A stretch of DNA of 64,000 bases from Salvelinus alpinus (lineage: Eukaryota; Chordata; Actinopteri; Salmoniformes; Salmonidae), in assembly GCF_045679555.1 (NCBI RefSeq), contig NC_092091.1:86519462-86583461 (forward strand), in the 5' to 3' direction. Position 1 is the first letter of the stretch, and each line of letters starts with the position of its first letter. The notes under the pieces were generated by a model. It did no database searches. It was not told the DNA's origin and worked only from the letters and a program-made list of their open reading frames with translations. Shown here one piece after another: positions 1 to 64,000 of this stretch. A program made the position numbers and the translations under genes.

Positions 1-127
1 AAGCTCATCAAATGTCTCCTCAAATTAATGTTAAAACAACCAAGAGTCATGACTATCAATAGATTATTGAGAAGACCTTGAATGTTTATAAGAGTGTAGT
101 TCTGTTTCTGTTTAATGTTTTGTCCAG
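1..127 (+). other. intron of receptor A upstream of its membrane exon
   Basis: This is intronic sequence. It closely matches the stretch before the membrane exon of receptor C (about 22,700-22,825), including the pyrimidine-rich lead into TGTCCAG. The signal-peptide and Ig exons of receptor A must lie to the left of the window. Confidence 0.7.
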
Positions 128-989
128 ACACCAGTCCTCCTGAGTCCTCCTCCTCTCCTCCTCCTGTAGACTGTGGGCTGTGTTGGATGTTGCTGTTCAG
201 TCTGTGTCCTGTGTCTGCTCTCCTCTCCTCTCTCCTCTCCTCCACCTGTGTCTACTCCTTCTGCAGAACAACAGGTAAACTCACTCTCTCACTTCCTCTC
301 AGTCAGGATTGACTTAATTAATCACTCGTTCATATTTTAAGTCTGGGTATTCCTAATCAATCTCACCTATTATTTAAACAACTACCTACGTTTAAAGCCT
401 TCGTTTTTTTAAAGCATCTTGACCACAATAAGTAAACATCTACCAACTTTTAACTGATATGTCCTTGTTTGACCTCAAACTTGGTGTTTTAATGGTGGTA
501 ACTCTTCCTCTGCAGCTCCAACTGAGACTCAGGTTCCTCTGAACAGGACGACCACCAGGGGAAGTGACAGCAGAGAGCAGACTACAGTCAAAGTGGGTGT
601 TGTAGTTATATTGTGGATAGCCATCTTGATTTGGAGTCCATGTGTTTGGAAACCCTACCCTATTCACATAGTATGTTTTCAATGGCATTTATAGTCATTA
701 AAAACAGAAGATAGATAGCAACAAAACAAATTGTATAATCTTAATGTTTATATTTCAATAATATTAACAGAATATTAAAATAATCACTCTCTCGCTCTCC
801 TTCTGACTAACTCTCTGCCTCTTTTTCTGTCTCTCTCTCTTTTTCTCTCTCTCTCTCTCTCAGGAGGAAGGAGACCTGTTTTACGCCTCGTTGGATATCC
901 GTCAGGGACAGAGGAGACCAAAGAAGAAGAAGAGAACCAAGAACTCTGACTTCAGTACCTACTCAGCCATCAATACCAGCAGAGTGTGA
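128..989 (+). CDS. receptor A, 3' part: ITIM-bearing Ig-superfamily receptor
   Basis: Three exons at the 3' end of an inhibitory-type Ig receptor, read from splice sites and from alignment to receptor C. Exon 128-274 encodes a Ser/Pro stalk and a membrane segment (CGLCWMLLFSLCPVSALLSS...). Exon 516-592 encodes a cytoplasmic linker (APTETQVPLNRTTTRGSDSR...). Exon 864-989 encodes the tail and ends in TGA. The tail holds two ITIM-like motifs, LFYASL and STYSAI, around a basic stretch, so it should recruit SH2 phosphatases at the plasma membrane. The linker exon lacks the donor used in receptor C (GAG then GTACTG); the next in-phase donor is GTGGGT at 593, which would add five residues. The signal peptide and Ig domain lie outside the window. 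Family assignment is uncertain, but gene structure and motifs are clear. Confidence 0.78.
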
Positions 990-3900
990 GACCTATACCA
1001 TCCATCAATACCAGCAGAGTGAGACCTATACCATCCATCAATACCAGCAGAGTGAGACCTATACCATCCATCAATGCCAGCAGAGTGAGACCTATACCAT
1101 CCATCAATACCAGCAGAGTGTGAGACCTGAACCATCCATCAATACCAGCAGAGTGAGACCTATACCATCCATCAATACCAGCAGAGTGTGAGACCTATAC
1201 CATCCATCAATACCAGCAGAGTGAGACCTATACCATCCATCAATACCAGCAGAGTGTGAGACCTATACCATCCATCAATACCAGCAGAGTGAGACCTATG
1301 CCATCCATCAATACCAGCAGAGTGTGAGACCTGAACCATCCATCAATACCAGCAGAGTGAGACCTATACCATCCATCAATACCAGCAGAGTGAGACCTAT
1401 ACCACCCATCAATACCAGCAGGGCGTGAGACCTATACCATCCATCAATACCAGCAGAGTGAGACCTATACCATCCATCAATACCAGCAGAGTGAGACCTT
1501 TACCATCCATCAATACCAGCAGAGTGAGACCTACACCATCCATCAATACCAGAAAAGTCTGAGACCTATACCAGCCATCAACACCAGCAGAGTGTGATAC
1601 CTATACCATCCATCAATACCATCAGAGTGAGATCAATACCAGCAGAGTGAGATCTATATCATCCATCAATACCAGCAGAGTGTGATCTATACCATCCATC
1701 AATACCATCAGAGAGAGACCTATACTATCCATCAATACCATCAGAGAGTGAGACCTATACCATCCATCTATACCAGCAGACAGTGACACCTTTACCATCC
1801 ATCAATACCATCAGAGAGAGACCTATACTATCCATCAATACCATCAGAGAGTGAGACCTATACCATCCATCTATACCAGCAGACAGTGACACCTTTACCA
1901 ACCATCAATACCAGCAGAGAGTGAGACCTATACCATCAATCAAAACCAGCAGAATGAGGCCTATACCATCCATCAATACTAGCAGAGTGAGAGACTTATA
2001 CCAGCCATCAATACCAGGAGAGTGAGAGACTTATACAATCCATCAATACCAGCAGAGTGAGAGACTTATACCAGCCATCAATACCAGGAGAGTGAGAGAC
2101 TTATACCAGCCATCAATACCAGGAGAGTGAGAGACCTATACCATCCATCAATACCAGCAGAGTGAGCGACTTATACCAGCCATCAATACCAGGAGAGTGA
2201 GAGACCTACATCATCCACCAATACCAGCAGAGTGAGCGATTTATACCAGCCATCAATACCAGCAGAGTGAGAGACTTATACCAGCCATCAATACCAGGAG
2301 AGTGAGAGACATACCAGTAATCAATACCAGGAGAGTGAGAGACCTATACTATCCATCAATACCAGCAGAGTGAGCGACTTATACCAGCCATCAATACCAG
2401 GAGAGTGAGAGACCTATACCATCCATCAATACCAGCAGAGTGAGCGACTTATACCAGCCATCAATACCAGGAGAGTGAGAGACCTATATCATCCATCAAT
2501 ACTAGCAGAGTGAGCGACTTATACCATCCACCAATACCAGCAGAGTGAGCGACTTATACCAGCCATCAATACCAGCAGAGTGAGAGACTTATACCAGCCA
2601 TCAATACCAGGAGAGTGAGAGACATACCAGCCATCAATACCAGGAGAGTGAGAGACTTATACCAGCCATCAATACCAGGAGAGTGAGAGACTTATACCAG
2701 CCATTAATACCAGGAGAGTGAGAGACTTATACCAGCCATCAATACCAGGAGAGTGAGAGACTTATACCATCCATCAATACCAGCAGAGTGTGAGAGCTAT
2801 ATCAACCATCAATACCAGCAGAGTGTGAGACCTATACCATCCATCAATACCAGCAGTGTGAGACCTATACCATCCATCAATACCAGCAGTGTGAGACCTA
2901 TACCATCCATCAATACCAGCAGAGTGTGAGACCTATACCATCAATCAATACCAGCAGAGTGAGAGACCCATACCATCCATCAATACCAGCAGTGTGAGAC
3001 CTATACCATCCATCAACACCAGCAGAGTGTGAGACCTATACCATCAATCAATACCAGCAGAGTGAGAGACCTATACCATCCACCAATACCAGCAGAGTGT
3101 GAGACCTATACCACCCATCAATACCAGCAGTGTGAGACCTATACCATCCATCAATACCAGCAGAGTGTGATCTATACCATCCATCAATACCATCAGAGAG
3201 AGACCTATACTATCCATCAATACCATCAGAGAGTGAGACCTATACCATCCATCTATACCAGCAGACAGTGACACCTTTACCATCCATCAATACCAGCAGA
3301 GAGTGAGACCAATACCAACCATCAATACCAGCAGAGAGTGAGACCTATACCATCAATCAAAACCAGCAGAATGAGACCTATACCATCCATCAATACTAGC
3401 AGAGTGAGAGACTTATACCAGCCATCAATACCAGGAGAGTGAGAGACTTATACAATCCATCAATACCAGCAGAGTGAGAGACTTATACCAGCCATCAATA
3501 CCAGGAGAGTGAGAGACTTATACCAGCCATCAATACCAGCAGAGTGAGAGACTTATACCAGCCATCAATACCAGGAGAGTGAGAGACTTATACCAGCCAT
3601 CAATACCAGGAGAGTGAGAGACCTATACCATCCATCGATACCAGCAGAGTGAGCGACTTATACCAGCCATCAATACCAGGAGAGTGAGAGACCTACATCA
3701 TCCACCAATACCAGCAGAGTGAGCGATTTATACCAGCCATCAATTCCAGCAGAGTGAGAGACTTATACCAGCCATCAATACCAAGAGAGTGAGAGACATA
3801 CCAGTAATCAATACCAGGAGAGTGAGAGACCTATACTATCCATCAATACCAGCAGAGTGAGCGACTTATACCAGCCATCAATACCAGGAGAGTGAGAGAC

Positions 3901-5516
3901 CTATACCATCCATCAATACCAGCAGAGTGAGCGACTTATACCAGCCATCATTACCAGGAGAGTGAGAGACCTATATCATCCATCAATACCAGCAGAGTGA
4001 GCGACTTATACCATCCACCAATACCAGCAGAGTGAGCGACTTATACCAGCCATCAATACCAGCAGAGTGAGAGACTTATACCAGCCATCAATACCAGGAG
4101 AGTGAGAGACATACCAGCCATCAATACCAGGAGAGTGAGAGACTTATACCAGCCATCATTACCAGGAGAGTGAGAGACCTATATCATCCATCAATACCAG
4201 CAGAGTGAGTGACTTATACCATCCACCAATACCAGCAGAGTGAGCGACTTATACCAGCCATCAATACCAGCAGAGTGAGAGACTTATACCAGCCATCAAT
4301 ACCAGGAGAGTGAGAGACTTATACCAGCCATCAATACCAGGAGAGTGAGAGACTTATACCATCCATCAATACCAGCAGAGTGTGAGAGCTATATCAACCA
4401 TCAATACCAGCAGAGTGTGAGACCTATACCATCCATCAATACCAGCAGTGTGAGACCTATACCATCCATCAATACCAGCAGAGTGTGAGACCTATACCAT
4501 CAATCAATACCAGCAGAGTGAGAGACCTATACCATCCATCAATACCAGCAGTGTCAGACCTATACCATCCATCAACACCAGCAGAGTGTGAGACCTATAC
4601 CATCAATCAATACCAGCAGAGTGAGAGACCTATACCATCCACCAATACCAGCAGTGTGAGACCTATACCACCCATCAATACCAGCAGAGTGTGAGACCTA
4701 TACCATCCATCAATACCAGCAGAGTGAGCCCTCTACCCTCCATCAATACCAGCAGAATGTGAGACCTATACCAGCCATCAATACCAGCAGAATGTGAGAC
4801 CTATATCAACCGTCAAAACCAGCAGAGTTGAGACCTATACCATCCATCAATACCAGCAGAATGTGAGACCTATACCAGCCATCAATACCAGCAGAGTGAG
4901 ACCTATACCATCCATCAATACCAGCAGACTGAGACCTATACCATCCATCAATACCAGCAGACTGAGACCTATACCATCCATCAATACCAGCAGAATGTGA
5001 GACCTATACCAGCCATCAATACCAGCAGTGTGAGACCTATACCATCCATCAATACCAGCAGAGTGAGACCTATACCAACTATCAATACCAGCAGAGTGTG
5101 AGACCTATACCAGCAGACTGTGAGACCTATACCAGCAGAGTGTGAGACCTATACCAGCCATCAATACCAGCAGAGTGAGACCTATACAGGCCATCAACAC
5201 CAGCAGAGTGTGAGACCTATACCATCCATCAATACCAGCAGACTGAGACCTATACCATCCATCAATACCAGCAGACTGAGACCTATACAAGTCATCAATA
5301 CCAGCAGAGTGAGACCTATACCAGCCATCAATACCAGCAGAGTGAGACCTATACCATCCATCAATACTAACAGAGTGAGACCTATACCATCCATCAATAC
5401 CAGCAGACTGAGACCTATACCATCCATCAATACCAGCAGAGTGAGACATATACCATCCATCAATACCAGCAGAGTGAGACCTATACCAGCCATCAACACC
5501 AGCAACACCAGAAATA
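955..5516 (+). repeat. ITIM-derived 33-bp minisatellite, array 1
   Basis: Roughly 130-140 tandem units of about 33 or 35 bp (key parts: GAGACCTATACCATCCATCA then ATACCAGCAGAGTG). The array starts inside the tail exon of receptor A: the last codons, TCA GCC ATC AAT ACC AGC AGA GTG TGA, are the core of every unit. There is higher-order structure: the stretch from about 1,680 recurs from about 3,168, including the same variant units. In units without the extra TG the frame reads RPIPSINTSRV repeatedly; the long frames at 5,120-5,602 and elsewhere come from this and are not genes. Confidence 0.95.
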
Positions 5517-6770: not shown

Positions 6771-8514
6771 TGAATATACCTGGAATAAATATATTTTGGA
6801 ATAAAATTATGTTTTTCAGAGATTACAATGTTCTGTGGTGTAATTGACCTGATCACTATGTAACTCTATTGAGAATGTGTTTTAAAGCTTTACTGGGCTT
6901 CTTTTAGTCAACTTCAACCAAAGGCTCAGTGTTTGTATGAAACCATGGAAACTGCTGGGATTCTGTCAACATTTGTCTTCCTCTAAAGCCACACCCCCCT
7001 TAGCATCCAATCCACACCCTCTTAACCTATAAGTCACACGCTTGTCTCGTCTAAGCCAACCCTCTAAGTATATAAACCACAACTACTATGCCTATAAGCC
7101 ACACCCTCAAACATAAACCTCGCTGAAATTTCAAACAGAATGACCTGACCTTGACATGGAGGAGACTGAAGGGCAGTATTTCAAACAGAATGGCCAGACT
7201 GTAGGGCTGTATTTCCCAAACTTGGTCCTGGGGACCCCAAGAAGTGCACATTTAAATAATTAATTAGTGAATCATCAAGCGTTGATTATTAGATTCAGCT
7301 GTGTAGTGCTAGGTCAAAACCACAACGTACCACAGAGGTAGACTGAGTCAGTCTGGACGATCTGTCTTGTTAGGAGCTCAGTCACTTCATCTCTTTATGA
7401 TACAAGCAGTGTCTTCACATTTCACCACACATCATTTCATCAGCAATTCTAAATGCTTACGGCAATGAAATTAAATCAAATGCAACTATATAAATCAATA
7501 ATGAACAAAACAAGAAACACAAACACCGCACTGACGTGAAACAGAAACAATGACGACTGGGGAAGGAACCAAAGGGACATAGAAACGGCAGGTAATCAAG
7601 GAGGTGATGGAGTCTGGGTGACTGTCATTATGCGCATAACGATGGTGACAGGTGTGGAGGAGACTGGAGACCTAGAGAGGTTTGATCTAAATGCAAATTG
7701 TTCTAAAAGCTTAAAACACATCAATTGTTATAATTCTAAAAGTAAAAATCACTGAAAAAGGGGCGTAGACTTCGGCTAACAACTTTGGCTTGCGTCAAGA
7801 AAAAATGTTGAGTGTTCGAACAGCCATCAAAACTCTTACCGAAATTTAAAACAAAACTTCCCAAAAATGTAGTCATAATATACTGTTTTGGCTGGTAGCA
7901 TGCAGACGCCTTCGCACTCCTACTAAGCCTATAAGCCACACCCCCAAACACAGACCTCTCTGATAGGTTGCTGGAGCCTAGTCAGACTGAATGACATGAC
8001 ATTGAACAGGAAGAGACCATAGTGTCCTCATACTCAACTCTGGTCCTCCAAGCCAGTTAAACTGTGTTTTTACATTGCTCCCTTCTCTCTAATCACGGAT
8101 TGGTTTAGACCTGTGATACCAGGTGGGTGTAATTAATGATCAGGTAGAACAGAGAACCAGCAGGCTACGGACCTCGTAGGGTCAGAGTTCAATACCCCTG
8201 ACATAGAGGGAGAGAATGAAATAATGAAATAACATCTAATGAAACTGAATCAATATTTATTGAAAATTGCTTTTAAAACACATCAATACACTGCAAACAT
8301 GAATTACAATGATAAACCAACAATGAAACTTCCAAACTGAAACTATATCAAAAGATATTTAAACATTTTCCCTGAGCTTAAAAACAACATTTTAAAATAA
8401 CAATTGTTATGATCATTATAAGACGAACGTAAAAAAGAAAAAAAGTCACTAGAACAAAAATATATTAACTCATACAATCAAAGCTGTAATACCTTGTCCT
8501 CCCTGATAAATAAT
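6771..8514. other. 3' flank of receptor B; inverted match to 27,400-27,830
   Basis: No gene is recognised. The stretch around 6,890-7,030 (AACCAAAGGCTCAGTGTTTG, CCATGGAAACTGCTGGGATT) and parts of 7,920-8,000 (ATAAGCCACACCC) match 27,400-27,830 in reverse complement, marking the outer arms of the B/C inverted duplication. ACACCC-rich 20-bp motifs (AAGCCACACCCTC) recur, related to 31,085-31,320. Confidence 0.55.
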
Positions 8515-9384
8515 GTTATTGGTCTCACTCTGATGGTATTGATGGATGGTATAGGTCTCACTCTGCTGGTATTGATGGATGGTATAGGTCTCACTCTGAT
8601 GGTATTGATGACTGGTATAGGTCTCACTCTGATGGTATTGATGACTGGTATAGGTCTCACTCTGATGGTATTGATGGCTGGTATAGGTCTCACTCTGATG
8701 GTAATGGTGACTGGTATAGGTCTCACTCTGATGGTATTGATGACTGGTATAGGTCTCACTCTGATGGTATTGATGACTGGTATAGGTCTCACTCTGATGG
8801 TATTGATGACTGGTATAGGTCTCACTCTGATGGTATTGATGGCTGGTATAGGTCTCACTCTGATGGTATTGATGACTGGTATAGGTCTCACTCTCTGATG
8901 GTATTGATGGATGGTATAGGTCTCACTGATGGTTTTGATGGATGGTATAGGTCTCACTCTCTGCTGGTATTGATGGCTGGTATAGGTCTCACTCTCTGAT
9001 GGTATTGATGGATGGTATAGGTCTCACTCTCTGCTGGTTTTGATGGCTGGTATAGGTCTCACTCTCTGCTGGTATTGATGGCTGGTATAGGTCTCACTCT
9101 CTGATGGTATTGATGGATGGTATAGGTCTCACTCTCTGCTGGTTTTGATGGCTGGTATAGGTCTCACTCTCTGCTGGTTTTGATGGCTGGTATAGGTCTC
9201 ACTCTCTGCTGGTTTTGATGGCTGGTATAGGTCTCACTCTCTGCTGGTATTGATGGATGGTATTGGTCTCACTCTGCTGGTATTGATGGATGGTATAGGT
9301 CTCACTCTGCTGGTTTTGATGGCTGGTATAGGTCTCACTCTCTGCTGGTATTGATGGATGGTATAGGTCTCACTCTGATGGTAA
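8515..9384 (-). repeat. ITIM-derived 33-bp minisatellite, array 2 (outer part)
   Basis: About 26 units, reverse complement of the array 1 unit (GGTATAGGTCTCACTCTGAT, GGTATTGATGACT), downstream of receptor B in its own orientation. The 33-bp periodicity keeps one frame open for 159 codons on the minus strand. The array is split from 9,681-11,017 by a SINE. Confidence 0.93.
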
Positions 9385-9680
9385 ATCTCCCGGGTGGCGC
9401 AGTGGTCTAGGGCACTGCATCACAGTGCTAGCTGCGCCACCAGAGTCTCTGGGTTCGCGCCCAGGCTCTGTCGCAGCCGGCCGCAACCGGGAGATCCGTG
9501 GGGCGACGCACAATTGGCATAGCGTCGTCCGGGTTAGGGAGGGTTTGGCCGGTAGGGAGGGTTTGGCCGGTAGGGATATCCTTGTCTCAGTATGTAAAAA
9601 AAAAAATGTATGCACTCTACTGTAAGTCGCTCTGGATAAGAGCGTCTGCTAAATGACTAAAATGTAAAAATGTAAAAAAT
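9385..9680 (+). mobile_element. tRNA-derived SINE inserted in the ITIM minisatellite
   Basis: Begins CTCCCGGGTGGCGCAGTGGT, a tRNA-like head with box-B-like GGTTCGCGCCC, continues CGCACAATTGGCATAGCGTC and ends with a tail CTGGATAAGAGCGTCTGCTA before short AAATGT repeats. This is the salmonid SINE pattern with a LINE-related 3' tail. The insertion interrupts an otherwise continuous array, so it postdates at least part of the expansion. Confidence 0.85.
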
Positions 9681-10992
9681 GTATTGATGGCTGGTATAGG
9701 TCTCACTCTGATGGTATTGATGGATGGTATAGGTCTCACTCTGATGGTATTGATGGCTGGTATAGGTCTCACTCTGCTGGTATTGATGGATGGTATAGGT
9801 CTCACTCTGATGGTATTGATGGATGGTATAGGTCTCACACTCTGCTGGTATTGATGGACGGTATAGGTTTAACACTCTTCTGGTATTGATGGCTGGTATA
9901 GGTCTCACTTTGATGGTATTGATGGCTGGTATAGGTCTCACTCTGATGGTATTGATGGCTGGTATAGGTCTCACTCTGATGGTATTGATGGATGGTATAG
10001 GTCTCACACTCTGCTGGTATTGATGGATGGTATAGGTCTCACTCTGATGGTATTGTTGGCTGGTATAGGTCTCACTCTGCTGGTATTGATTGATGGTATA
10101 GGTCTCACTCTGCTGGTATTGATGGATGGTATAGGTCTCACTCTGATGGTATTGATGGATGGGATAGGTCTCACTCTGCTGGTATTGATGGATGGTATAG
10201 GTCTCTCACTCTGCTGTTATTGATGGATGGTATAGGTCTCACTCTGCTGGTATTGATGGATGGTATAGGTCTCACACTCTGCTGGTATTGATGGATGGTA
10301 TAGGTCTCACACTCTGCTGGTATTGATGGCTGGTAAAGATCTCACACTGCTGGTATTGATAGCTGGTATAGGTCTCACACTGCTGGTATTGATGGATGGT
10401 ATAGGTCTCACACTGCTGGTATTGATGGATAGTATAGGTCTCACTCTGCTGGTATTGATGGATGGTATAGGTCTCTCACTCTGCTGGTATTGATGGATGG
10501 TGTAGGTCTCACTCTGCTGGTATTGATGGATGGTATATGTCTCACTTTGCTGGTATTGATGGATGGTATAGGTCTCACACTCTGCAGGTATTTATGAATG
10601 GTAAAGATCTCACACTGCTGGTATTGATAGCTGGTATAGGTCTCACACTCTGCTGGTATTGATGGCTGGTATAGGTCTCACACTCTGCTGGTATTGATGG
10701 CTGGTATAGGTCTCACACTCTGCTGGTATTGATGGATGGTATAGGTCTCACACTCTGCTGGTATTGATGGATGGTATAGGTCTCACACTCTGCTGGTATT
10801 GATGGCTGGTTTAAGCCTTACACTCTGCTGGTATTGATGGCTGGTAAAGGTCTCACACTGTGCTGGTATTGATGGATGGTATAGGTCTCACACTCTGCTG
10901 GTATTGATGGCTGGTATAGGTCTCACACTCTGCTGGTATTGATGGCTGGTATAGGTCTCTCACTCTGCTGGCATAAATAGATGGTAAAGGTC

Positions 10993-11017
<25 letters not shown>
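9681..11017 (-). repeat. ITIM-derived 33-bp minisatellite, array 2 (inner part)
   Basis: About 40 units that join the last codons of receptor B at 10,993-11,030 without any spacer. Units near the gene carry the extra TG (TCACACTCTGCTGG on this strand), units further away mostly lack it, and ATCAG variants (GATGGT) dominate on the far side. Confidence 0.93.
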
Positions 11018-15961
<4,944 letters not shown>

Positions 15962-16310
15962 CTGGTGGTCTGATGGTGTGATGGTGACTGTCAGAGAGTA
16001 ACAAGGTCTTTGCTGCGTATTTCCGTGTTCATGACTAGATGTACTTTACCATGAAAGGACATACGAGCAGCGATTGGTTCGATGGAATGGAAAGTTTTCA
16101 GCTCGTGGTACACTTGTTGTGTGACATGAAGGGGAGGGTTTAGCATCGAAGTAAACAAGTTTCACACCGACATGACGTCACTGGAAAATATTCAGCTTCT
16201 TTGAGGTGGTCGTTGTAGATAGCAACACCTAACTAGCAGCACATGGTCAAAGTCAACCTACTGCAACATCATTAAACACAACATGAAGAACAAAACACTC
16301 ATTTTAATGT
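15962..16310 (-). promoter_or_regulatory. upstream region of receptor B with a CRE
   Basis: Matches the upstream region of receptor C in inverted orientation. A palindromic TGACGTCA lies at 16,173-16,180, about 0.2 kb before the start codon; a conserved block (CCATGAAAGGACATACGAGC, AGCGATTGGTTCGAT) lies between it and the gene. Promoter activity is inferred from position and conservation. Confidence 0.6.
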
Positions 16311-16324
16311 CACTTTGATCCTTG

Positions 16325-17036
16325 AAAGAGAAGACTTGAGACAGAGACCTATCATGAGACAGAGACCTATCTTGAGACAGAGACCTATCTTGAGACAGAG
16401 ACCTATCTTGAGACAGAGGCCTATCTTGAGACAGAGACCTATCTTGAGACAGAGAGCTATCATGAGACAGAGGCCTATCATGAGACAGAGACCTATCTTG
16501 AGACAGAGGCCTATCTTGAGACAGAGACCTATCATGTGACAGAGGCCTATCTTGAGACAGAGACCTATCTTGAGACAGAGACCTATCATGAGACAGAGAC
16601 CTATCATGAGACAGAGACCTATCATGTGACAGAGGCCTATCTTGAGACAGAGACCTATCTTGAGACAGAGACCTATCATGAGACAGAGACCTATCATGAG
16701 ACAGAGACCTATCTTGAGACAGAGGCCTATCTTGAGACAGAGGCCTATCTTGAGACAGAGGCCTATCATGAGACAGAGACCTATCTTGAGACAGAGACCT
16801 ATCTTGAGACAGAGACCTATCTTGAGACAGAGGCCTATCTTGAGACAGAGACCTATCTTGAGACAGAGGCCTATCTTGAGACAGAGGCCTATCTTGAGAC
16901 AGAGGCCTATCTTGAGACAGAGGCCTATCTTGATACAGAGACCTATCTTGAGACAGAGACCTATCATGAAAGAGAGACCTATCATGAGACAGAGGCCTAT
17001 CTTGAGACAGAGACCTGTCTTGAGACAGAGACCTAA
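16325..17036 (+). repeat. 18-bp minisatellite
   Basis: About 39 units of ATCTTGAGACAGAGACCT with ATCATG and GAGGCCT variants. The period divides by three, so several frames stay open on both strands (up to 269 codons); none is a gene. The mirrored place next to receptor C (about 21,040) holds only one unit. Confidence 0.95.
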
Positions 17037-17660
17037 GGTTGGCCTGTATACCTGTAGCCTGCCAGTATTAATGTTTGATTTATCAAACGATGAACATCTA
17101 CTAATCATAACATTTAAAAGCTGATCTGCATGAACTATTTCAGGCGTCCCAAAATGTAGTATTTATCCATCAAACATTGAGACCAAACCCTGACTTGAAA
17201 ACCATGGGCGCGTTCGAGTAGATCACGTTTGTCGAGTTGTTGAGCATCGTTGGTCACCGCCTTACAAAGTGTGTTGCATTATGGTTATGAAAATTGTCCG
17301 ACTTGCGACCACATGGAGGCTGTATGACCTTGACTAAAACCATGTGATCAAAGGTCATGCAGATGTTGATGAAGTCGCTGCAGTTGCTTCTCACCAACTG
17401 GACCATGTAACCATCACCTGCATTGTGGGAGGGACTATTTGTCAACCAATCATTGGGGTGTTTTTGTTTGACCTACAGGAACGTGGTGAAAGACGTGACT
17501 GAAACAGGAAGCACCTTGTCATGATTGTAAAGCTACTGGGGATAAAATGAAAGTGATATTTGAGACCTCTCTGTAACCCATTAATTATACACATGTTAAG
17601 TTTTCAGTTTGTAATGAGTGATAAGGGGCGTATAGTAAAGTTTATTTACACATTTATAAA
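17037..17660. other. inner arm of the B/C inverted duplication
   Basis: Unique-looking sequence; the part around 17,040-17,200 matches 20,880-21,040 in reverse complement (CATTTAAAAGCTGATCTGCA). No gene is recognised. Confidence 0.55.
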
Positions 17661-17995
17661 GAAAAACTTTTAGAAACACCAGCAGCTATGTTGACACTGT
17701 CATGTTGAAACAGCCAGAAACTACAACCAGAAACTACAATAACCATAATGCTCTATAGAGGATGTGACTGGAACAGAAACACGTTTAGAAACACCAGCAG
17801 CTATGTTGACACTGTCATGTAGAAACAGCCAGAAACTACAACCAGAAACTACAATAACCATAATGCTCTATAGAGGATGTGACTGGAACAGAAACACTTT
17901 TAGAAACACCAGCAGCTATGTTGACACTGTCATGTTGAAACAGCCAGAAACTACAACCAGAAACTACAATAACCATGATGCTCTGGAGTGAATGT
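17661..17995 (+). repeat. 115-bp tandem repeat, three copies
   Basis: Units start TAGAAACACCAGCAGCTATG at 17,671, 17,786 and 17,901. The unit includes AACTACAATAACCATAATGC, which has an inverted relative around 20,760-20,870. Confidence 0.88.
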
Positions 17996-18311
17996 GACGG
18001 TACATATTTTAACAGCTAAACCAATTGTAGTTCTTTATCTTTGTGGATGTATTTCTGTATCTAACAATCTCTTTTAATTCAGGATTATTGGGGAAACAAA
18101 TAGGACTGAGACAGAGTGAGAAATTCACTCAGTGTGAACATATGTGAGCTCATCGTCATAAGTTTAGCAACACCATGGCAACGGCAACAGGAAGTCAGTG
18201 TGGGTTTCCTATGTACTATGTGAGTGTGTGTGCATATGATGATTGCATATGCATGCCGAGTCCTTTTTGTGTGGTTGTGGTTTACTCAGCTAGTGCTGCT
18301 GCTCTGTAGGG

Positions 18312-19050: not shown

Positions 19051-19065
19051 GCCGTTGCACAGACG

Positions 19066-19066
19066 G

Positions 19067-19144
<78 letters not shown>
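19066..19144 (+). repeat. (GT)n microsatellite
   Basis: About 39 uninterrupted GT dinucleotides near the centre of the B/C palindrome. Confidence 0.97.
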
Positions 19145-19146
<2 letters not shown>

Positions 19147-19564
19147 AGCGTTCGTGATCGTGCTTTTAGAAGTTTGTGTGTGCAAAATACTATGTGACAT
19201 TATTATTATGTAGTAATATGTAATATTTCTCCAGTATACGTGGTATAAGGTGTAGTATTAACAGTCTTTATGAGGGAATAGATACCAGATAGATACTTTA
19301 TGACGTGACTTTGAGTGAAACAACAGAGTCATTCAGCTGTATCAACACCTCTAAAACTCAAGTCATGAGGTGTGACTTCCTCATGTGGTGTGGGTCCATC
19401 TCAGTCTGTGTTCCACACCTGGAGTCTAACATTACCCATCAGACCTTGAGATGGACTAGTTCAAGTCAAGAGGTGTGAACTGTTAACATGAGAGGGCAGG
19501 GCAGTAGTTGTGATTGTATCCTTTATGGTTGTGTTTACCTGTTATACTAACTGATATCTGCATC
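19145..19564. other. spacer near the palindrome centre
   Basis: About 420 bp without repeats or a recognised gene, including a CTCAAGTCATGAGGTGTGAC and TTCAAGTCAAGAGGTGTGAA pair. Confidence 0.4.
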
Positions 19565-21431: not shown

Positions 21432-24400
21432 ATGGACAGGCTGTGTGTCACTCTGATTGCATTCTTATGTGAGTAACTTTTTTACTGGGCCTTATAGCTG
21501 GATGATAGATGATTTATTGATGTGGTTTTATGGTTGACCAGATTTGTTATCTTATTATTGTGATATTGTGATGACTGTGGTAAAGACATGATGTTTATAT
21601 TTTCATGTGGAGAAGTTTATGATGTCAAAGTGACATTCTGTTATTCATCCTGACACTGTTCCTCTGTTACCTGTAGGTGCTGTTTCCTCCAGTCAGTTCA
21701 TCCTAACACTGTTCCTCTGCTACCTGTAGGTGCTGTTTCCTCCAGTCAGTTCATCCTGACACTGTTCCTCTGCTACCTGTAGGTGCTGTTTCCTCCAGTC
21801 AGTTCATCCTAACACTGTTCCTCTGTTACCTGTAGGTGCTGTTTCCTCCAGTCAGTTCATCCTAACACTGTTCCTCTGTTACCTGTAGGTGCTGTTTCCT
21901 CCAGTCAGTTCATCCTAACACTGTTCCTCTGTTACCTGTAGGTGCTGTTTCCTCCAGTCAGTTCATCCTAACACTGTTCCTCTGATACATGTAGGTGCTG
22001 TTTCCTCCAGTCAGTTCATCCTAACACTGTTCCTCTGCTACCTGTAGGTGCTGTTTCCTCCAGTCAGTTCATCCTAACACTGTTCCTCTGTTACCTGTAG
22101 GTGCTGTTTCCTCCAGTCAGTTCATCCTAACACTGTTCCTCTGTTACCTGTAGGTGCTGTTTCCTCCAGTCAGGATGGGATCTCTGCAGCAGAGGTGGAG
22201 CTGAGAGTCAGACCAGGAGACAACATCACTCTCTACTGTGACTGTAGCATAACTACTGGAGTTTACATTATGTGGTATAGGAACTGTTCTCACAAGTACC
22301 AGCCTCCTCTTGTTATTTCAGCTAAGTTTTTAAGTAACAACCGTTTCCCTGGATATAATGGGTTATGGAACCCCTCTAACAAGTCCCATGATCTACTGAT
22401 TGAGAACATCACTGAATCTGACCTGGGACTCTACTACTGTGGGACTAAGGAGAACACGGTAGTGGATGATGGAGGTAAAGGAGGAATTAAACAGAAAGAG
22501 TTGTACCACTATGGAAACATCACCACTAGGATTTCACTTGGTAAGAACAGTTATTATTCTGTCTTCATCTTCTGGCTGTATCTTTAGTATTATTAATATT
22601 GTATTAGTATTGGTGTGTCTGGTTTCCTTGAATGAGAGGATGTTGAGTTGTGAGGAACACCAAAGAAAATGTATCTTATTTTGAATTAATAATTCGAGGT
22701 TGATCAAGTGCATCAAATGTCTCCTCAAATTCATGTTTAAACAAACAAGACTATCAATAGATTATTGAGAAGATCTTGATTGTTTCTAATAGTTTAGTTC
22801 TGTTTGTGTTTAATGTTTTGTCCAGACATCAGTCCTCCTGAGTCCTCCTCCTCCCCTGATGTAGACTGTGGTCTGTGTTGGATGTTGCTGTTCAGTCTGT
22901 GTCCTGTGTCTGCTCTCCTCTCCTCTCTCCTCTCCTCCACCTGTGTCTACTCCTTCTGCAGAACAACAGGTAAACTGACTGCATTATTCATAACAGTATG
23001 TGCTCTTTCACTCTTTTATAGTATGAACTCATTCAGTTTGTTGATGTGATGGATTTTAATTCAACCTTGAATATGAATATTCCTGTCAGCTGTTCTGCGC
23101 ATGCGCTGAGAACGCGTCCTGTAATAACGTTGAACTGATAAAAGACGTTTGTGACGTCGTCCTCGGAGAGCGAGGCTCAGTGCCCATGGAAGAGGAGATG
23201 GGTATTTTGTTTCAGTGAATCTCATATTTAGAAACTTAAAAACATACAAAAATAGTTTCCCCCCCAATTAGTTGAATTTTATTAAGCAACAAGCTTACCC
23301 TCCCCTTAATCAAGGCTGGTTTAGCAGCGTCGCGTACGTGCCTCTTTTTATCATGGCCATTAGCCAAAAGTAGCCTATGAACAAAGGGGTTTTAAATGGT
23401 TTACTGAGAGTGCTTTGAAATATGTTGGAGGTTTTTGCCGTCACAATTCACATACCTGCTTTTTTCACTTGTTCGAGTAGACTATCCATCCCCGTTTTAA
23501 AAGAGCGCCCCTCGTCCGACAACCAAAGACAAGCTCCGCTCCTCCAATCTATTCAGTCTTCCGAATAGCCTAATGCCATTTAGACTGCGGACTTTTTGGA
23601 GAATATGCGTTATGAATGTTACGCGTAAAGACATATAGACCTACGTGTGTAAACACAGTGGAGGAAGTACAAATGTGATCTGTTGCATGGTTCCATGATG
23701 TTTATGAGACAATACTTTACGAGGAGCAATTATGGTTCCTGTAACTGTATTTAGAAATAGCTTGTTTATAACAAGTTGCTGTGTCATTTCTGTTAGAATT
23801 TGATTCGAATTATACTCTCTTATCAATTGCTTAGGTCTTATCAATTGCTTAGGTCTTATCAATAGTTTAGTGAATTGATTCTAGATAATTGACTACCTCT
23901 GGCATGTCCATGTCCAGACTGCATTTTATCAGTAGCCCCCTATATCAGTGTGAATGCTATAGTCGATGTTTAACAATGTATTTCCGTATTAAAAGTGATG
24001 CATTTAGAACAAAGTTCAACACATTTGGGCTCCCGAGTGGCGCAGCGGTCTAAAGGCACTGCATTTCAGTGCAAGAGGCGTCACTACAGTCCCTGTAGTT
24101 CGAATCCAGGCTGCATCACATCTGGCTGTGATTGGGAGTTCCGTAGGGCGGCGCACAATTGGCCCAGCGTCGTCCGGGTTTTGGCTAGTGTAGGCAGTCA
24201 TTGTAAAGAATTTGTTCTTAACTGACTTGCCTAGTTAAATAATATAATGGTTAAATAAATAAAAATATGGAGCAGGCTATTTAATGAACTACGCTGTAAA
24301 GGACTGACATTGGAATTGGAGTTGATGACAGCTGAATACATAAAAGGCTGTAAATACACAACTTGAAGAAACCACATATTTAGCCATGGAGCACTTTTTG

Positions 24401-25178
24401 ATTGGCCAGTAAGTGACCAGGCCTGGACACACCCACAACATGTTTATTCATCAAAACCCAGCCCTTTTGCGCCACTGCCAGTTATTGCGGTTGTGAAAAT
24501 AGCAAAAATATTTCTGATAAACGCAGGAAAATATAATGCTACCATCAGCGCTAAGATTTAACATTGCGTTACGTTTCGTTTTTAAAATAAAGCCATTAAA
24601 GTTAGTATGTGTCCTTTTAAGTAGTTAGTTTGAATAATGCCAATCTCTACTCTACAGCTCCAACTGAGACTCAGGTTTCTCCGATCAGGACCACCACCAG
24701 GGGAAGTGACAGCAGAGAGGTACTGTATATGAACAGTCAAAATGGGTGTTGTAGTTCTATAACAGGCATGGTATCTTGTTTTGTAGTCCACATTTTTTTG
24801 TAATCCAGTGTTATAGAGCCCCACAGTGGAGGTGTCCTAATACCCATAAAACCTAGTGGTCAAACAGGGAAATGGTTCCAATCGTTTTTCCACCATTCAT
24901 TTTTCCTATAGGGAATTTTACAAACACATAAAATAAGAGGTTGTGTTTCGTGTAGGCTTACCCTGGCGTGACGTTTTGATAACCGTGTAAATCTCTCTCG
25001 GACAAGGTGACTTTTACAGTAACATATTATTTATAAAATCTCTCTCTCTCAGGAGGAAGGAGATCTGTGTTACGCCTCATTGGATATCCGTCAGGGACAG
25101 AGGAGACCAAAGAAGAAGAAGAGAGTCCAGAACTCTGACTTCAGTACCTACTCAGCCATCAATACCAGCAGAGTGTGA
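21432..25178 (+). CDS. receptor C: intact ITIM-bearing Ig-superfamily receptor
   Basis: Five coding exons with consistent phases encode 251 residues: signal peptide 21,432-21,468 (MDRLCVTLIAFL), V-type Ig domain 22,154-22,540, stalk and membrane 22,826-22,969, linker 24,658-24,719, tail 25,053-25,178. Ig hallmarks are Cys41, Trp53 and Asp102-Leu-Gly-Leu-Tyr-Tyr-Cys108; an extra Cys57 follows WYRN. The membrane segment (about 158-182) has no charged residue. The tail has ITIM-like motifs LCYASL (Tyr217) and STYSAI (Tyr243) on either side of a lysine-rich stretch, so it probably recruits SHP-type phosphatases and inhibits leukocyte activation. It shares a mirrored upstream region with receptor B. 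Known fish families with similar layout are NITRs, DICPs and CD300-like proteins; I cannot choose between them. Confidence 0.88.
21660..22153 (+). repeat. 53-bp array of V-exon splice acceptors, receptor C
   Basis: About nine units directly before the V exon, each with GTGCTGTTTCCTCCAGTCAG, the tract CACTGTTCCTCTGCTACC and TGTAG. Unit starts are 53 bp apart (for example 21,677 and 21,730). Confidence 0.95.
22970..24657. other. intron 3 of receptor C
   Basis: No other gene is recognised. The intron carries a SINE at 24,028-24,245 and a short CTTATCAATTGCTTAGGT direct repeat near 23,820-23,860. Confidence 0.6.
24028..24245 (+). mobile_element. tRNA-derived salmonid SINE
   Basis: Head GGGCTCCCGAGTGGCGCAGC, box-B-like GTTCGAATCCAGGC, middle GGCGCACAATTGGCCCAGCG, and tail GTTCTTAACTGACTTGCCTA then GTTAAATAA. 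This is the HpaI/SmaI-type salmonid SINE; the subfamily is not assigned. Confidence 0.9.
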
Positions 25179-25886
25179 GACCTATACCATCCATCAATAC
25201 CAGCAGAGTGTGAGACCTATACCAGCCATCAATACCAGCAGAGTGTGAGACCTATACCATCCATCAATACCAGCAGAGTGAGACCTATACCAGCCATCAA
25301 TACCAGCAGAGTGTGAGACCTATACCAGCCATCAATACCAGCAGAGTGTGAGACCTATACCAGCCATCAATACCAGCAGAGTTTGAGACCTTTACCATCC
25401 ATCAATACCAGCAGAGTGTGATCTATACCAGCCATCAATACCATCAGAGTGTGACCTATACCATCAGTCAATACCAGCAGTGTGAGACCTATACCAGCCA
25501 TCAATACCAGCAGAGTGTGAGACCTATACCAACCATCAATACCAGCAGAGTGAGACCTATACCATCCATCAATACCAGCAGAGTGAGACCTATACCAGCC
25601 ATCAATATCAACAGTGTGTGAGACCTATACCATCCATCAATACCAGCAGTGTGAGACCTATACCACCCATCAATACCAGCAGAGTGTGACCTATACCAGC
25701 CATCAATACCAGCAGAGTGAGAGACTTATACCAGCCATCAATACCAGCAGTGTGAGACCTATACCACCCATCAATACCAGCAGAGTGAGATCTATACCAG
25801 CCATCAATACCAGCAGAGTGTGAGACCTATACCAACCGTCAATACCAGCAGAGTGAGACCTATACCAGCCATCAATACCATCCATC
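25170..25886 (+). repeat. ITIM-derived 33-bp minisatellite, array 3
   Basis: About 21 units that continue without spacer from the last codons of receptor C. This is the shortest of the three gene-linked arrays. Confidence 0.94.
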
Positions 25887-29552: not shown

Positions 29553-29562
29553 AATTATTTTA

Positions 29563-32306: not shown

Positions 32307-34525
32307 ATGGATAGGCTGTTTATCGCTCTGATCACACTGTTAGGTGAGTCAACTTTTACATTATTGGTCTTTATTGATCAATTTGAGATGAAAACATATG
32401 GTTGGTTCTCCGTTCTTTCAGTGTAAATATTAGATGTGTTATTGAAAGTTATTTTTGACACAGTCCAATCTGTGGTCTATTCTGTGTATTGTAGGCCAGT
32501 GATCTGCATAGCAGAACATGTTTATTGTAAAGGGACTTGTTTTTTAGTCTTTAACATTGTTGCAGTTTCAAAGCGTTCATCCTAACACCTGTAGCTGCTG
32601 TTTCCTCCAGTCAGTTCATCCTAACACTGTTCCTCTGCTACCTGTAGGTGCTGTTTCCTCCAGTCAGTTCATCCTAACACTGTTCCTCTGCTTCCTGTAG
32701 GTGCTGTTTCCTCCAGTCAGTTCATCCTAACACTGTTCCTCTGCTACCTGTAGGTGCTGTTTCCTCCAGTCAGTTCCTCCTAACACTGTTCCTCTGCTAC
32801 CTGTAGGTGCTGTTTCCTCCAGTCAGTTCATCCTAACACTGTTCCTCTGCTACCTGTAGGTGCTGTTTCCTCCAGTCAGTTCATCCTAACACTGTTCCTC
32901 TGCTACCTGTAGGTGCTGTTTCCTCCAGTCAGGATGGGATCTCTGCAGCAGAGGTGGAGCTGAGAGTCAGACCAGGAGACAACGTCGTTCTTCACTGTGA
33001 CATCAAACACAACGTAGAAACAGTCTGGATCAGAAACTGTTCTGGTGGGAGTGAAACGTGTGAGGCTTCTGTCTTCAGGTCTCTAAAGAGCCCTGTCCCA
33101 CGCTTCACCCTCCTATGGAGGCGCTCTCTGAGATTCTATGATCTACTGATTGAGAACATCACTGAGTCTGACCTGGGACTCTACTACTGCGTCACCATGG
33201 GGAGAGAAGAGCAGAAGAGATCCGACGAGGCTGTATATTACCTGGAGGTCTACCACTATGGAAACATCACCACTAGGATTTCCTTTGGTGAGAACAAAGT
33301 CCTTTTTATTTTTTATTTTTTATTTTTTTACATGTTTCTGTTTTATCGATTGGTTTCATTTGGAAAAAGTCTATATAAAGTGTATAAATGTCTTTTATGT
33401 GACTAAAATTGATGGAGGAACATTTATTTAACCTTTGTATCATCAGAAGATGTTTTTACTGTCAACAATATCAGTGTAAACACAATATTTCCATTTCCTT
33501 TGGTGTAATGTAGAAAGGACACACTGATTGATTGGTCTGAAAATAATATAGAAAGTGGCCCACTGATAATGTACCTCACCATTAAACAGAGAACATCCAG
33601 GACAACCCTGACCCTGAAAGTTGTCTGATCTGGGTCCTGGTACTGGCCTCCAAATCTCTGTTCCTGCTCCTCATTCCTGCTGCCTTCTGGGTCAGAAAAT
33701 TACACAGTGAGTCAGGAGGACATTGGGGGGCTACATGCCTACTGATATCAGTTAGTTTTGTTACGTATCAAAGTGTTTGTCATGTTAGCAGTTGATGTTC
33801 CTCTTCAATAACATGGACCCCAAAGCAAATCAGGGGGAGAAAAAGTGGTTTATTCAAGGAGAACGAATCATAGATGTTATGCTGGGAAGTAGATGGTCGA
33901 TGTTCATTCTCCCCTGTCCTCAGTGATTCCTCCACAGAACAACGGGACCTGATGTCATATTTAACCCCCCAACCCTAGCCTGTGGTCGACCAATTAGAAT
34001 TCCTTGTAGTAAAATTGGGCCAATGGCCAAATAACAAGTATCCTGTTACAGGCTCAATGTATAGACGATGTGGACCAATGAAAACTTGACATGTAGCTAT
34101 GAGTCCCGGACTGAAATTCCTACACAGATTCTAAACAGATTCTAAACAGATTCTACACAGATTCTAAACAGATTCTACACAGATTCTACACAGATTCTAC
34201 ACAGATTCTACACAGATTCTAAACAGATTCTACACAGATTCTACACAGATTCTAAACAGATTCTACACAGATTCTAAACAGATTCTACACAGATTCTACA
34301 CAGATTCTACACAGATGTTGAACTGAAAAACAACTGTTTCCATTGATCATTAATGCCCCATTGACCTCTAGTCCTCTGTGTTGTGTATTATCTTAAAATA
34401 TTGTTACAGTCCCTTACTGAATGACATGTCTGTTCTTCCCTACTGATTATGACGACTATCTGATGACGTGTGTACTAGTTTTAATGTTTGTTTTTTTAAT
34501 ATTAGGAGCAAGGAGGAATGCCTGA
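32307..34525 (+). CDS. receptor D: Ig-superfamily receptor with membrane lysine, activating type
   Basis: Four coding exons give 182 residues: signal peptide 32,307-32,343 (MDRLFIALITLL), V-type Ig domain 32,913-33,287, membrane exon 33,590-33,706, short tail 34,506-34,525 (stop TGA). The Ig exon shows VVLHCDIK, TVWIRNC and DLGLYYC and has an additional cysteine (SETCEAS). The membrane segment, about residues 150-172, contains a lysine (LVLASKSLFLLLIPAAF), and the tail is only about ten residues, with no tyrosine. In known paired receptors this layout pairs with ITAM adaptors such as DAP12 or the Fc receptor gamma chain; that role is inferred. The ectodomain is clearly related to A-C, while the membrane and tail exons are not. 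Confidence 0.85.
32580..32912 (+). repeat. 53-bp array of V-exon splice acceptors, receptor D
   Basis: About six units like those of receptors B and C, ending in the true acceptor of the V exon. Presence in all three genes means the array predates their duplication. Confidence 0.94.
33770..34112. other. intron 3 of receptor D
   Basis: No gene is recognised; an ordinary intronic stretch ahead of an 11-bp repeat. Confidence 0.5.
34113..34318 (+). repeat. 11-bp repeat ACACAGATTCT
   Basis: About 18 units of CAGATTCTAMA type (ACAGATTCTAC and ACAGATTCTAA) in intron 3 of receptor D. Confidence 0.93.
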
Positions 34526-34534
34526 AAATAACCA

Positions 34535-37278: not shown

Positions 37279-52407
<15,129 letters not shown>

Positions 52408-59460: not shown

Positions 59461-60302
<842 letters not shown>

Positions 60303-63300
60303 CTACAGAGACAACAGAGGGTTAGTGTCTGTCCTGTCATCTCCAACATGGCTACATCACCTCCACCATTCAACTAGAGAGACAACAGAGGGTTAGTGTC
60401 TGTCCTGTCATCTCCAACATGGCTACATCACCTCCACCATTCAACTAGAGAGACAACAGAGGGTTAGTGTCTGTCCTGTCAGCTCCAACATGACCACATC
60501 ACCTCCACCATTCAACTACAGAGACAGAGGGTTAGTGTCTGTCCTGTCAGCTCCAACATGACCACATCACCTCCACCATTCAACTACAGAGACAGAGGGT
60601 TAGTGTCTGTCCTGTCAGCTCCAACATGACCACATCACCTCCACCATTCAACTAGAGAGACAGAGGGTTAGTGTCTGTCCTGTCAGCTCCAACATGACCA
60701 CATCACCTCCACCATTCAACTAGAGAGACAGAGGGTTAGTGTCTGTCCTGTCAGCTCCAACATGACCACATCACCTCCACCATTCAACTAGAGAGACAAC
60801 AGAGGGTTAGTGTCTGTCCTGTCAGCTCCAACATGACCACATCACCTCCACCATTCAACTAGAGACAACAGAGGGTTAGTGTCTGTCCTGTCAGCTCCAA
60901 CATGACCACATCACCTCCACCATTCAACTAGAGAGACAACAGAGGGTTAGTGTCTGTCCTGTCAGCTCCAACATGACTACATCACCTCCACCATTCAACT
61001 ACAGAGACAACAGAGGGTTAGTGTCTGTCCTGTCAGCTCCAACATGACCACATCACCTCCACCATTCAACTACAGAGACAACAGAGGGTTAGTGTCTGTC
61101 CTGTCAGCTCCAACATGACCACATCACCTCCACCATTCAACTACAGAGACAACAGAGGGTTAGTGTCTGTCCTGTCAGCTCCAACATGACCACATCACCT
61201 CCACCATTCAACTAGAGAGACAGAGGGTTAGTGTCTGTCCTGTCAGCTCCAACATGACCACATCACCTCCACCATTCAACTACAGAGACAACAGAGGGTT
61301 AGTGTCTGTCCTGTCAGCTCCAACATGGCCACATCACCTCCACCATTCAACTACAGAGACAACAGAGGGTTAGTGTCTGTCCTGTCAGCTCCAACATGAC
61401 CACATCACCTCCACCATTCAACTAGAGAGACAACAGAGGGTTAGTGTCTGTCCTGTCAGCTCCAACATGACCACATCACCTCCACCATTCAACTACAGAG
61501 ACAACAGAGGGTTAGTGTCTGTCCTGTCAGCTCCAACATGACTACATCACCTCCACCATTCAACTAGAGAGACAACAGAGGGTTAGTGTCTGTCCTGTCA
61601 GCTCCAACATGGCCACATCACCTCCACCATTCAACTACAGAGACAACAGAGGGTTAGTGTCTGTCCTGTCAGCTCCAACATGACCACATCACCTCCACCA
61701 TTCAACTAGAGAGACAACAGAGGGTTAGTGTCTGTCCTGTCAGCTCCAACATGACCACATCACCTCCACCATTCAACTAGAGAGACAACAGAGGGTTAGT
61801 GTGTGTCCTGTCAGCTCCAACATGACCACATCACCTCCACCATTCAACTAGAGAGACAACAGAGGGTTAGTGTCTGTCCTGTCAGCTCCAACATGACCAC
61901 ATCACCTCCACCATTCAACTACAGAGACAACAGAGGGTTAGTGTCTGTCCTGTCAGCTCCAACATGGCCACATCACCTCCACCATTCAACTACAGAGACA
62001 ACAGAGGGTTAGTGTCTGTCCTGTCAGCTCCAACATGACCACATCACCTCCACCATTCAACTAGAGAGACAACAGAGGGTTAGTGTCTGTCCTGTCATCT
62101 CCAACATGACCACATCACCTCCACCATTCAACTAGAGACAACAGAGGGTTAGTGTGTGTCCTGTCAGCTCCAACATGACCACATCACCTCCACCATTCAA
62201 CTAGAGAGACAACAGAGGGTTAGTGTCTGTCCTGTCAGCTCCAACATGACCACATCACCTCCACCATTCAACTAGAGAGACAACAGAGGGTTAGTGTCTG
62301 TCCTGTCATCTCCAACATGACCACATCACCTCCACCATTCAACTAGAGAGACAACAGAGGGTTAGTGTGTGTCCTGTCAGCTCCAACATGACCACATCAC
62401 CTCCACCATTCAACTAGAGAGACAACAGAGGGTTAGTGTCTGTCCTGTCAGCTCCAACATGACCACATCACCTCCACCATTCAACTAGAGAGACAACAGA
62501 GGGTTAGTGTCTGTCCTGTCATCTCCAACATGACCACATCACCTCCACCATTCAACTAGAGAGACAACAGAGGGTTAGTGTCTGTCCTGTCAGCTCCAAC
62601 ATGACCACATCACCTCCACCATTCAACTACAGAGACAACAGAGGGTTAGTGTCTGTCCTGTCAGCTCCAACATGACCACATCACCTCCACCATTCAACTA
62701 GAGAGACAACAGAGGGTTAGTGTCTGTCCTGTCAGCTCCAACATGGCCACATCACCTCCACCATTCAACTAGAGAGACAACAGAGGGTTGGTGTCTGTCC
62801 TGTCAGCTCCAACATGGCTACATCACCTCCACCATTCAACTAGAGAGACAACAGAGGGTTAGTGTCTGTCCTGTCAGCTCCAACATGACCACATCACCGC
62901 CACCATTCAACTAGAGAGACAACAGAGGGTTAGTGTCTGTCCTGTCAGCTCCAACATGACCACATCACCTCCACCATTCAACTAGAGAGACAACAGAGGG
63001 TTGGTGTCTGTCCTGTCAGCTCCAACATGGCTACATCACCTCCACCATTCAACTAGAGAGACAACAGAGGGTTAGTGTCTGTCCTGTCAGCGCCAACATG
63101 ACCACATCACCTCCACCATTCAACTACAGAGACAACAGAGGGTTAGTGTCTGTCCTGTCAGCGCCAACATGACCACATCACCTCCACCATTCAACTACAG
63201 AGACAACAGAGGGTTAGTGTCTGTCCTGTCAGCTCCAACATGACCACATCACCTCCACCATTCAACTACAGAGACAACAGAGGGTTAGTGTCTGTCCTGT

Positions 63301-64000
63301 CAGCTCCAACATGACCACATCACCTCCACCATTCAACTACAGAGACAACAGAGGGTTAGTGTCTGTCCTGTCAGCTCCAACATGACCACATCACCTCCAC
63401 CATTCAACTAGAGAGACAACAGAGGGTTAGTGTCTGTCCTGTCAGCTCCAACATGACCACATCACCTCCACCATTCAACTAGAGAGACAACAGAGGGTTA
63501 GTGTGTGTCCTGTCAGCTCCAACATGACCACATCACCTCCACCATTCAACTAGAGACAACAGAGGGTTAGTGTCTGTCCTGTCAGCTCCAACATGGCTAC
63601 ATCACCTCCACCATTCAACTAGAGAGACAACAGAGGGTTAGTGTGTGTCCTGTCAGCTCCAACATGGCCACATCACCTCCACCATTCAACTAGAGAGACA
63701 ACAGAGGGTTAGTGTCTGTCCTGTCAGCTCCAACATGGCTACATCACCTCCACCATTCAACTAGAGAGACAACAGAGGGTTAGTGTCTGTCCTGTCAGCT
63801 CCAACATGGCTACATCACCTCCACCATTCAACTAGAGAGACAACAGAGGGTTAGTGTGTGTCCTGTCAGCTCCAACATGGCCACATCACCTCCACCATTC
63901 AACTAGAGAGACAACAGAGGGTTAGTGTCTGTCCTGTCAGCTCCAACATGGCTACATCACCTCCACCATTCAACTAGAGAGACAACAGAGGGTTAGTGTC
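60303..64000 (-). repeat. rbpj: 71-bp array built from the rbpj penultimate exon acceptor
   Basis: About 50 units that continue past the window end. On the minus strand each unit has ACACTAACCCTCTGTTGTCT, CTCTAG, then TTGAATGGTGGAGGTGATGT, GGTCATGTTGGAGCTGACAG, GACAG. The last two pieces are the first 45 bases of the exon at 60,199-60,302, and the first two are its polypyrimidine tract and AG. Unit lengths of 66, 68 and 71 bp come from small losses of ACA or GAGA. Confidence 0.96.

Follow-up and report, generated by a model that had tools for sequence, protein, structure and literature searches.

Tandem copies of exon borders in a repeat-rich stretch of the Salvelinus alpinus genome

Introduction

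Does the tandem copying of exon borders in unrelated genes of one short stretch of DNA point to a process aimed at exon edges, or is it what a region crowded with tandem arrays would produce in any case? This question is raised by a stretch of 64,000 nucleotides from Salvelinus alpinus (NCBI RefSeq assembly GCF_045679555.1, contig NC_092091.1, positions 86,519,462 to 86,583,461 of the forward strand), hereafter the window, which contains three gene systems, namely rbpj, stim2 and a family of V-set receptors. A preliminary description of the window had reported exon borders copied at five or more places. Four independent duplications of a splice edge are present, involving the V-exon acceptor of the receptors, the acceptor of the penultimate exon of rbpj, the donor of stim2 exon 8 and the acceptor of stim2 exon 10 (Table 1). 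These structures are of a kind which has already been named, the mirages of lancelet genes. The best explanation overall, given a probability of roughly 0.7, is a repeat-rich stretch in which arrays are born nearly blind to gene structure, those crossing an exon edge become mirages and selection then filters the outcome.

Results and Discussion

Duplicated exon borders

In each of the four cases the repeated unit joins intron sequence, the splice dinucleotide and exon sequence, and the copies lie head to tail beside the authentic boundary, with spacings of 53 bp (V acceptor), 71 bp (rbpj), 90 bp (first two copies of stim2 exon 8) and 58 bp (stim2 exon 10). The claim that unrelated genes share this behavior is thus borne out by the receptors, rbpj and stim2. 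Exons were placed by visual inspection, using homology and splice consensus; for stim2, the human protein served as a guide and the exons were afterwards checked by structure-chain and Pfam matches. Splice-site use was read from open reading frames (ORFs) rather than transcripts, and from one haplotype. With the exon-proximal splice copies the ORFs are intact, giving 1210 amino acids for stim2, 251 amino acids for receptor copy 3 and, for rbpj, the frame of the solved RBPJ chains.

Table 1. Positions in the window of the arrays, duplicated exon borders and gene discussed in the text
Feature	Position	Strand	Remarks
rbpj penultimate-exon acceptor array, 71 bp x ~53	60257..64000	-	Authentic junction 60302; array leaves the window
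V-exon acceptor array, receptor copy 2	14498..14852	-	Authentic acceptor junction 14517/14518
V-exon acceptor array, receptor copy 3	21644..22173	+	Authentic junction 22153/22154
V-exon acceptor array, receptor copy 4	32587..32932	+	Authentic junction 32912/32913
stim2 gene, 12 coding exons	37279..52407	-	1210-amino-acid ORF with exon-proximal splice copies
stim2 exon 8 donor end, two copies, 90-bp unit	45818..45999	-	Junctions 45935 and 45845
stim2 exon 8 donor end, third diverged copy	44680..44745	-	Junction 44684
stim2 exon 10 acceptor duplication	40946..41027	-	Junctions 40963 (open frame) and 41021
stim2 exon 12 in-frame array, 48 bp (16 amino acids) x 16.2	38242..39019	-	Tandem Repeats Finder and ORF
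Receptor copy 1 tail array, 33/35 bp x ~132	967..5504	+	Begins 20 bp before TGA 987-989, extends into 3' untranslated region
Receptor copy 2 tail array, copy 1 tail-array family	8513..11015	-	Tandem Repeats Finder, unit comparison
Receptor copy 3 tail array, copy 1 tail-array family	25153..25880	+	Stop codon 25176-25178
18-bp array x 39, away from mapped exons	16335..17035	-	Single copy in paralog copy 3 at 21039-21060

At the right end of the window, rbpj is encoded on the minus strand. Searches with its last two exons gave solved RBPJ chains (E-values down to 5e-63) and the Pfam TIG_SUH domain. The array at the acceptor of the penultimate exon has a unit made up of 25 bp of intron and 46 bp of exon, for which Tandem Repeats Finder (TRF) gave 53.0 copies. 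Fifty-two exact anchors were located, every one of them retaining the TAG/TT junction (52/52), in agreement with the 71-bp acceptor array of the preliminary description. Successive anchors are 71 bp apart in 42 of 51 intervals, the remainder being 68 bp, 69 bp and, once, 142 bp. Splicing to any of the 51 anchored upstream copies would lead to a stop after 22-24 codons (51/51). The 47 units that could be parsed comprise 17 distinct strings in irregular order, a few of which differ just by the shift of a small indel.

The receptor family occupies both strands, with three copies which include V exons (copies 2, 3 and 4) and the 3' part of a fourth (copy 1) at the left end of the window. The leader, V, transmembrane, stalk and tail exons of copy 3 join into the ORF mentioned above. 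A PDB search with the V exon returned 1679 generic immunoglobulin matches and gave no specific receptor family name. At the V acceptor, the 53-bp array described previously was found in all three copies with V exons, its unit consisting of 33 bp of intron and 20 bp of exon. Six, ten and six units were parsed in copies 2, 3 and 4, respectively, with the AG intact in all 22. In copy 3 the authentic junction gives the complete frame, and each of the nine upstream acceptor copies leads to a stop at codon 27-30 (9/9).

The EF-hand/SAM part of the stim2 product has solved STIM2 as its best match (E-value of 4e-65), and the Pfam SOAR domain was found. Both stim2 duplications of the preliminary description, three copies of the exon 8 donor and two of the exon 10 acceptor, are present. 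The first two donor copies are near-identical, sharing 62 of the last 64 exon bases, and the third, diverged copy lies past a TTGG-type simple array. The second acceptor of exon 10 is located 58 bp upstream of the first, with 23 of 24 bases identical. Among the extra splice-site copies only the second exon 8 donor (45845) keeps the frame open. Its use would add 30 amino acids in frame, giving a 1240-amino-acid ORF in which the SOAR domain is still recognised; the added residues would fall in the SOAR region (45845-45935). The third donor copy, if used, and the upstream exon 10 acceptor (41021) both result in a truncated protein. Human STIM2.1 is reported to include an additional exon, placed between exons 8 and 10 (PMC4411291), and the second exon 8 donor junction would correspond to that site if exon numbers are matched between the two genes. 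A simple pattern scan of stim2 intron 8 returned no STIM2.1-like microexon.

The fifth border named in the preliminary description, that of the receptor tail exon, did not hold up as a splice border. This array covers the last ~20 coding bases, the stop codon and then the 3' untranslated region (3'UTR), and its unit spans no intron-exon boundary. Since the V arrays agree in unit and in position, and so do the three receptor tail arrays, each family was counted once, and each most simply represents a single birth. The alternative of six separate events, three for the V arrays and three for the tail arrays, was rejected, as the units are shared and the genes paralogous. Exact-pattern scans found no occurrence of the V unit in viral contigs and none of the tail unit in genome contigs, as is expected for collections of viruses and prokaryotes.

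It should be considered whether the arrays were inflated or misjoined during assembly. The copy number of long arrays is hard to assemble, and the rbpj array runs out of the window. Against this stand the irregular order of the unit variants in rbpj, the presence of V arrays in three paralogs with 6, 10 and 6 units, the intact coding frames and the absence of N runs in a scan of the window, and an artefact of this sort is considered highly improbable. The arrays look like real local amplifications, since units differ between copies and one array exists as a single copy in a paralog.

Comparison with known systems

Mirages have been described in the lancelet genes Adh3 and globins BflGb6 and BflGb9 (PMC3087553) as well as TnC and PGBD5 (PMC3902484). 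Mirages reportedly leave regular splicing undisturbed and undergo concerted evolution inside a cluster (PMC3087553; PMC3902484). The present case differs in that it concerns a fish, with ~53 copies at rbpj compared with 6 and 3 in two haplotypes of BflGb6, and in that splicing was followed by reverse transcription PCR in the lancelet and is deduced from ORFs here. Among the open papers listed for the term 'mirage', the accounts concern lancelets, which is no proof of absence in fish.

A likeness is also seen to the RdRp gene of potato, in which an intron was reportedly gained after a tandem duplication over an intron-exon boundary; ATP2A1 and fission-yeast AGGT cases are cited in that account (PMC4974935). 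There, too, a short tandem duplication bears an acceptor and the start of an exon. Unlike that case, the extra copies in the window can all sit inside the existing intron.

With regard to fish, abundant tandem repeats, including in coding regions, make up 10.9% of the Atlantic cod assembly, compared with <2.5% in most species studied (PMC5241972). That figure is for units of 1-50 bp genome-wide and is not comparable with the 49% found here in one window with units of up to 500 bp. Polymorphic minisatellites have been reported in the GH introns of Sparus aurata (PMC3045353). In the available sections of the cod and Sparus aurata accounts, arrays across exon edges are not described, and among the matches listed in a search of the literature by description, as far as these could be seen, none named exon-edge arrays in fish. 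What is unusual here is the copy number at the rbpj acceptor, the occurrence together of several mirages within a short piece of vertebrate DNA and, in stim2, a second donor that stays in frame. Should a repeat-rich vertebrate genome prove to hold many mirages, these would offer natural tests of how the spliceosome chooses among dozens of near-identical acceptors, and of the origin of introns and isoforms.

Enrichment at exon edges

Arrays detected with TRF make up 49.6% of the window. After overlapping rows were dropped, 68 arrays remained, together covering 49.3%; a period of at least 10 bp is found in 57 of these arrays, which fall into 43 unit families by unit comparison. As about half of the window lies in arrays, any feature within it has a good chance of being in or near one.

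To this background the splice sites were compared in several ways, using a set of 45 sites drawn up without the stalk donor of copy 1, the later exons of copy 4 and the exons of other genes. In a permutation on collapsed sequence, every array was reduced to one unit, which left 34.5 kb with 6% of it in units, and positions for the units were then drawn at random. The number of splice sites spanned was 5 of 45, where 2.56 were expected on average (P 0.10); when paralogs were dropped, it was 3 of 32, with a mean of 1.43 expected (P 0.17). A second test, with hits independent of TRF, asked whether a 60-bp probe over the splice site had a displaced copy within 1500 bp, with 3000 controls from the collapsed sequence. 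Over eight settings this gave 5-6 of 45 sites (P 0.046-0.11) and, without paralogs, 3-4 of 32 (P 0.11-0.27). Under four TRF settings with 47 sites, the earlier 45 plus two leader donors, the number spanned was 5-6 of 47 (P 0.12-0.25); when paralogs were dropped, it was 3 of 33 (P 0.28-0.59). Minisatellites overlapping coding exons numbered 11 of 57 compared with 10.5 expected, and 6 of 44 compared with 8.1 when counted by family, the 44 families having been pruned by hand and some exon ends (copy 1 stalk, copy 2 tail) being approximate. Hits on exon edges do not clearly exceed what the abundance of arrays in the window would give; the tests are of low power and a modest preference is possible. 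The earlier suggestion of a process aimed at exon edges finds no clear support in these figures.

Several observations speak against array births being indifferent to genes. Every point estimate for spanned splice sites lies above expectation. The strongest version of the enrichment, in which paralogs were kept separate and the exon 10 duplication was included, gave 6 of 45 sites compared with 175 of 3000 controls (P 0.046), falling to 4 of 32 (P 0.11) without paralogs. With 32 sites the power was 27% for a twofold excess and 63% for a threefold one. Both of the longest array families, the tail family with 4538 bp and the rbpj family with no less than 3744 bp, touch an exon, and edge arrays were longer than the others (P 0.03) in a post hoc comparison which left out paralogs and the exon 12 array (n = 4 including the tail array, compared with 47). 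The rbpj array exits the window, placing its far end outside the view, and the apparently empty site in the paralog of the 18-bp array, discussed below, might be a contraction and not the state before its birth.

These points bear on the possibility that exon edges are genuine hot spots of tandem duplication, with, for example, the composition of splice signals, R-loops or the phasing of nucleosomes where exons begin promoting slippage or break repair. The presence of four independent duplications at splice edges, spread over three unrelated genes, would fit such a process together with the uniformly raised estimates, as would a strong enrichment of low-complexity arrays beside splice sites. 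On the other hand, the spanned sites are without significant excess once paralogs are dropped, and neither exon overlap nor the complex arrays at or beside splice sites show a significant one, the latter even with paralogs. For complex arrays, 7 of 45 splice sites were crossed or had an array within 30 bp on their intron side, compared with 4.6 expected (P 0.18). For low-complexity arrays, 9 of 45 sites had one in the intron at a distance of up to 30 bp, compared with 1.6 expected (P 2e-5), where the class follows a rule of our own, two paralogous tail acceptors are counted and the null ignores the denser arrays of stim2. At distances of 15 and 50 bp the counts were 9 and 10 of 45 for low-complexity arrays and 5 and 7 of 45 for complex ones.

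Of the nine low-complexity cases, four are pyrimidine runs that precede acceptors, and two of these four are paralogous. GT/CA runs account for three cases, two at donors and one ahead of an acceptor, and the remaining two are other A/T-rich or five-base repeats beside donors. At exons 6 and 4 of stim2 the pyrimidine tract of the acceptor has grown into arrays of ~0.5 kb (47654-48140) and ~0.9 kb (48862-49795), respectively, which come within 10 bp of the exon. Most low-complexity arrays at splice sites were likely seeded by the splice signal itself, be it a pyrimidine tract or a GT-rich donor, and the excess is what such signals would yield. Hot spots are on this evidence an unlikely explanation of the four duplications. 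The same low standing is given to the broader proposal that exon edges are hot spots of minisatellite birth genome-wide in this fish lineage, making mirages common in a vertebrate genome. Were it true, new introns and isoforms could draw on spare splice sites that are always at hand, one example being 30 residues inserted into the Orai-activating region of STIM2. The null drawn from within the window shows that a repeat-dense region easily mimics a targeted process.

Origin and tolerance of the arrays

Arrays born nearly blind to gene structure, the reading preferred here, are illustrated by receptor copies 2 and 3, which have flanking DNA in common. The 18-bp array of copy 2 lies away from exons and is single-copy in its paralog, and arrays thus seem to arise in place anywhere; birth in place would be simpler than loss to one copy. 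The 19-bp and 21-bp arrays of copy 2 likewise have no counterpart array in copy 3, and none of the three lies on a mapped exon. It is suspected that short duplications in tandem appear and lengthen where they lie, as minisatellites do through slippage, template switching or unequal exchange, roughly without regard to gene structure, and that the few which fall across an exon edge become mirages. Low-complexity repeats would be the exception, being probably seeded at splice sites by pyrimidine tracts and GT-rich donors.

Selection would then act as a filter. Within exons, arrays are expected to last where the unit length is divisible by three, and at an edge where all copies of the edge but one can stay in the intron or 3'UTR. 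The spliceosome would be expected to use the copy adjoining the intact exon, because under exon definition the acceptor is paired with the donor at the other end of the exon. Of the two array families lying within exons, one has a 12-bp and the other a 48-bp unit, both multiples of three; the units of the acceptor arrays, 53 and 71 bp, are not. The 48-bp family is the in-frame array of stim2 exon 12, present as originally reported, in which a 16-amino-acid repeat forms a long in-frame tract of about 16 repeats. Although the numbers are small, these unit lengths are as expected from selection acting on arrays placed at random.

A different role for selection was contained in the preliminary description, namely the retention of units that carry splice signals; such units might serve as decoy or regulatory sites or as sources of isoforms, such as the second exon 8 donor of stim2. 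Hits on exon edges not clearly above expectation lend this no support. The intact AG in all 52 anchored rbpj units and all 22 parsed V units would agree with it, as would the open 1240-amino-acid frame with its recognised SOAR domain and the extra exon of human STIM2.1. The units are near-identical, however, so that recent amplification alone predicts intact AGs, and the AGs were for this reason rejected as a sign of selection. Moreover, the upstream acceptors lead to early stops in rbpj, in the V exon of receptor copy 3 and at the exon 10 copy, and the third copy of the exon 8 donor also yields a stop. Retention of this kind is regarded as improbable.

Other repeat structures

Three further structures were observed among the receptor genes. 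Between the V and transmembrane exons of receptor copy 2 (11845-12731) lies a 33-bp array of the tail family (11900-12323) with a pure TC run (12315-12678). This block is flanked by a 53-bp direct repeat (98%), and the minisatellite seems to have moved as a block. At 29558-31942, an inverted repeat (97% over 307 bp and 98.5% over 68 bp) encloses a 52/53-bp array, the family of which recurs at 28842-29552 and 34531-34796. A period of 53 bp is common to three unrelated array families, and was rejected as a signal since such coincidences are, by a rough estimate, expected among ~44 families. Receptor copies 2 and 3 stand head to head at 14118-22549 as an inverted duplication, with several arrays present in just one of them.

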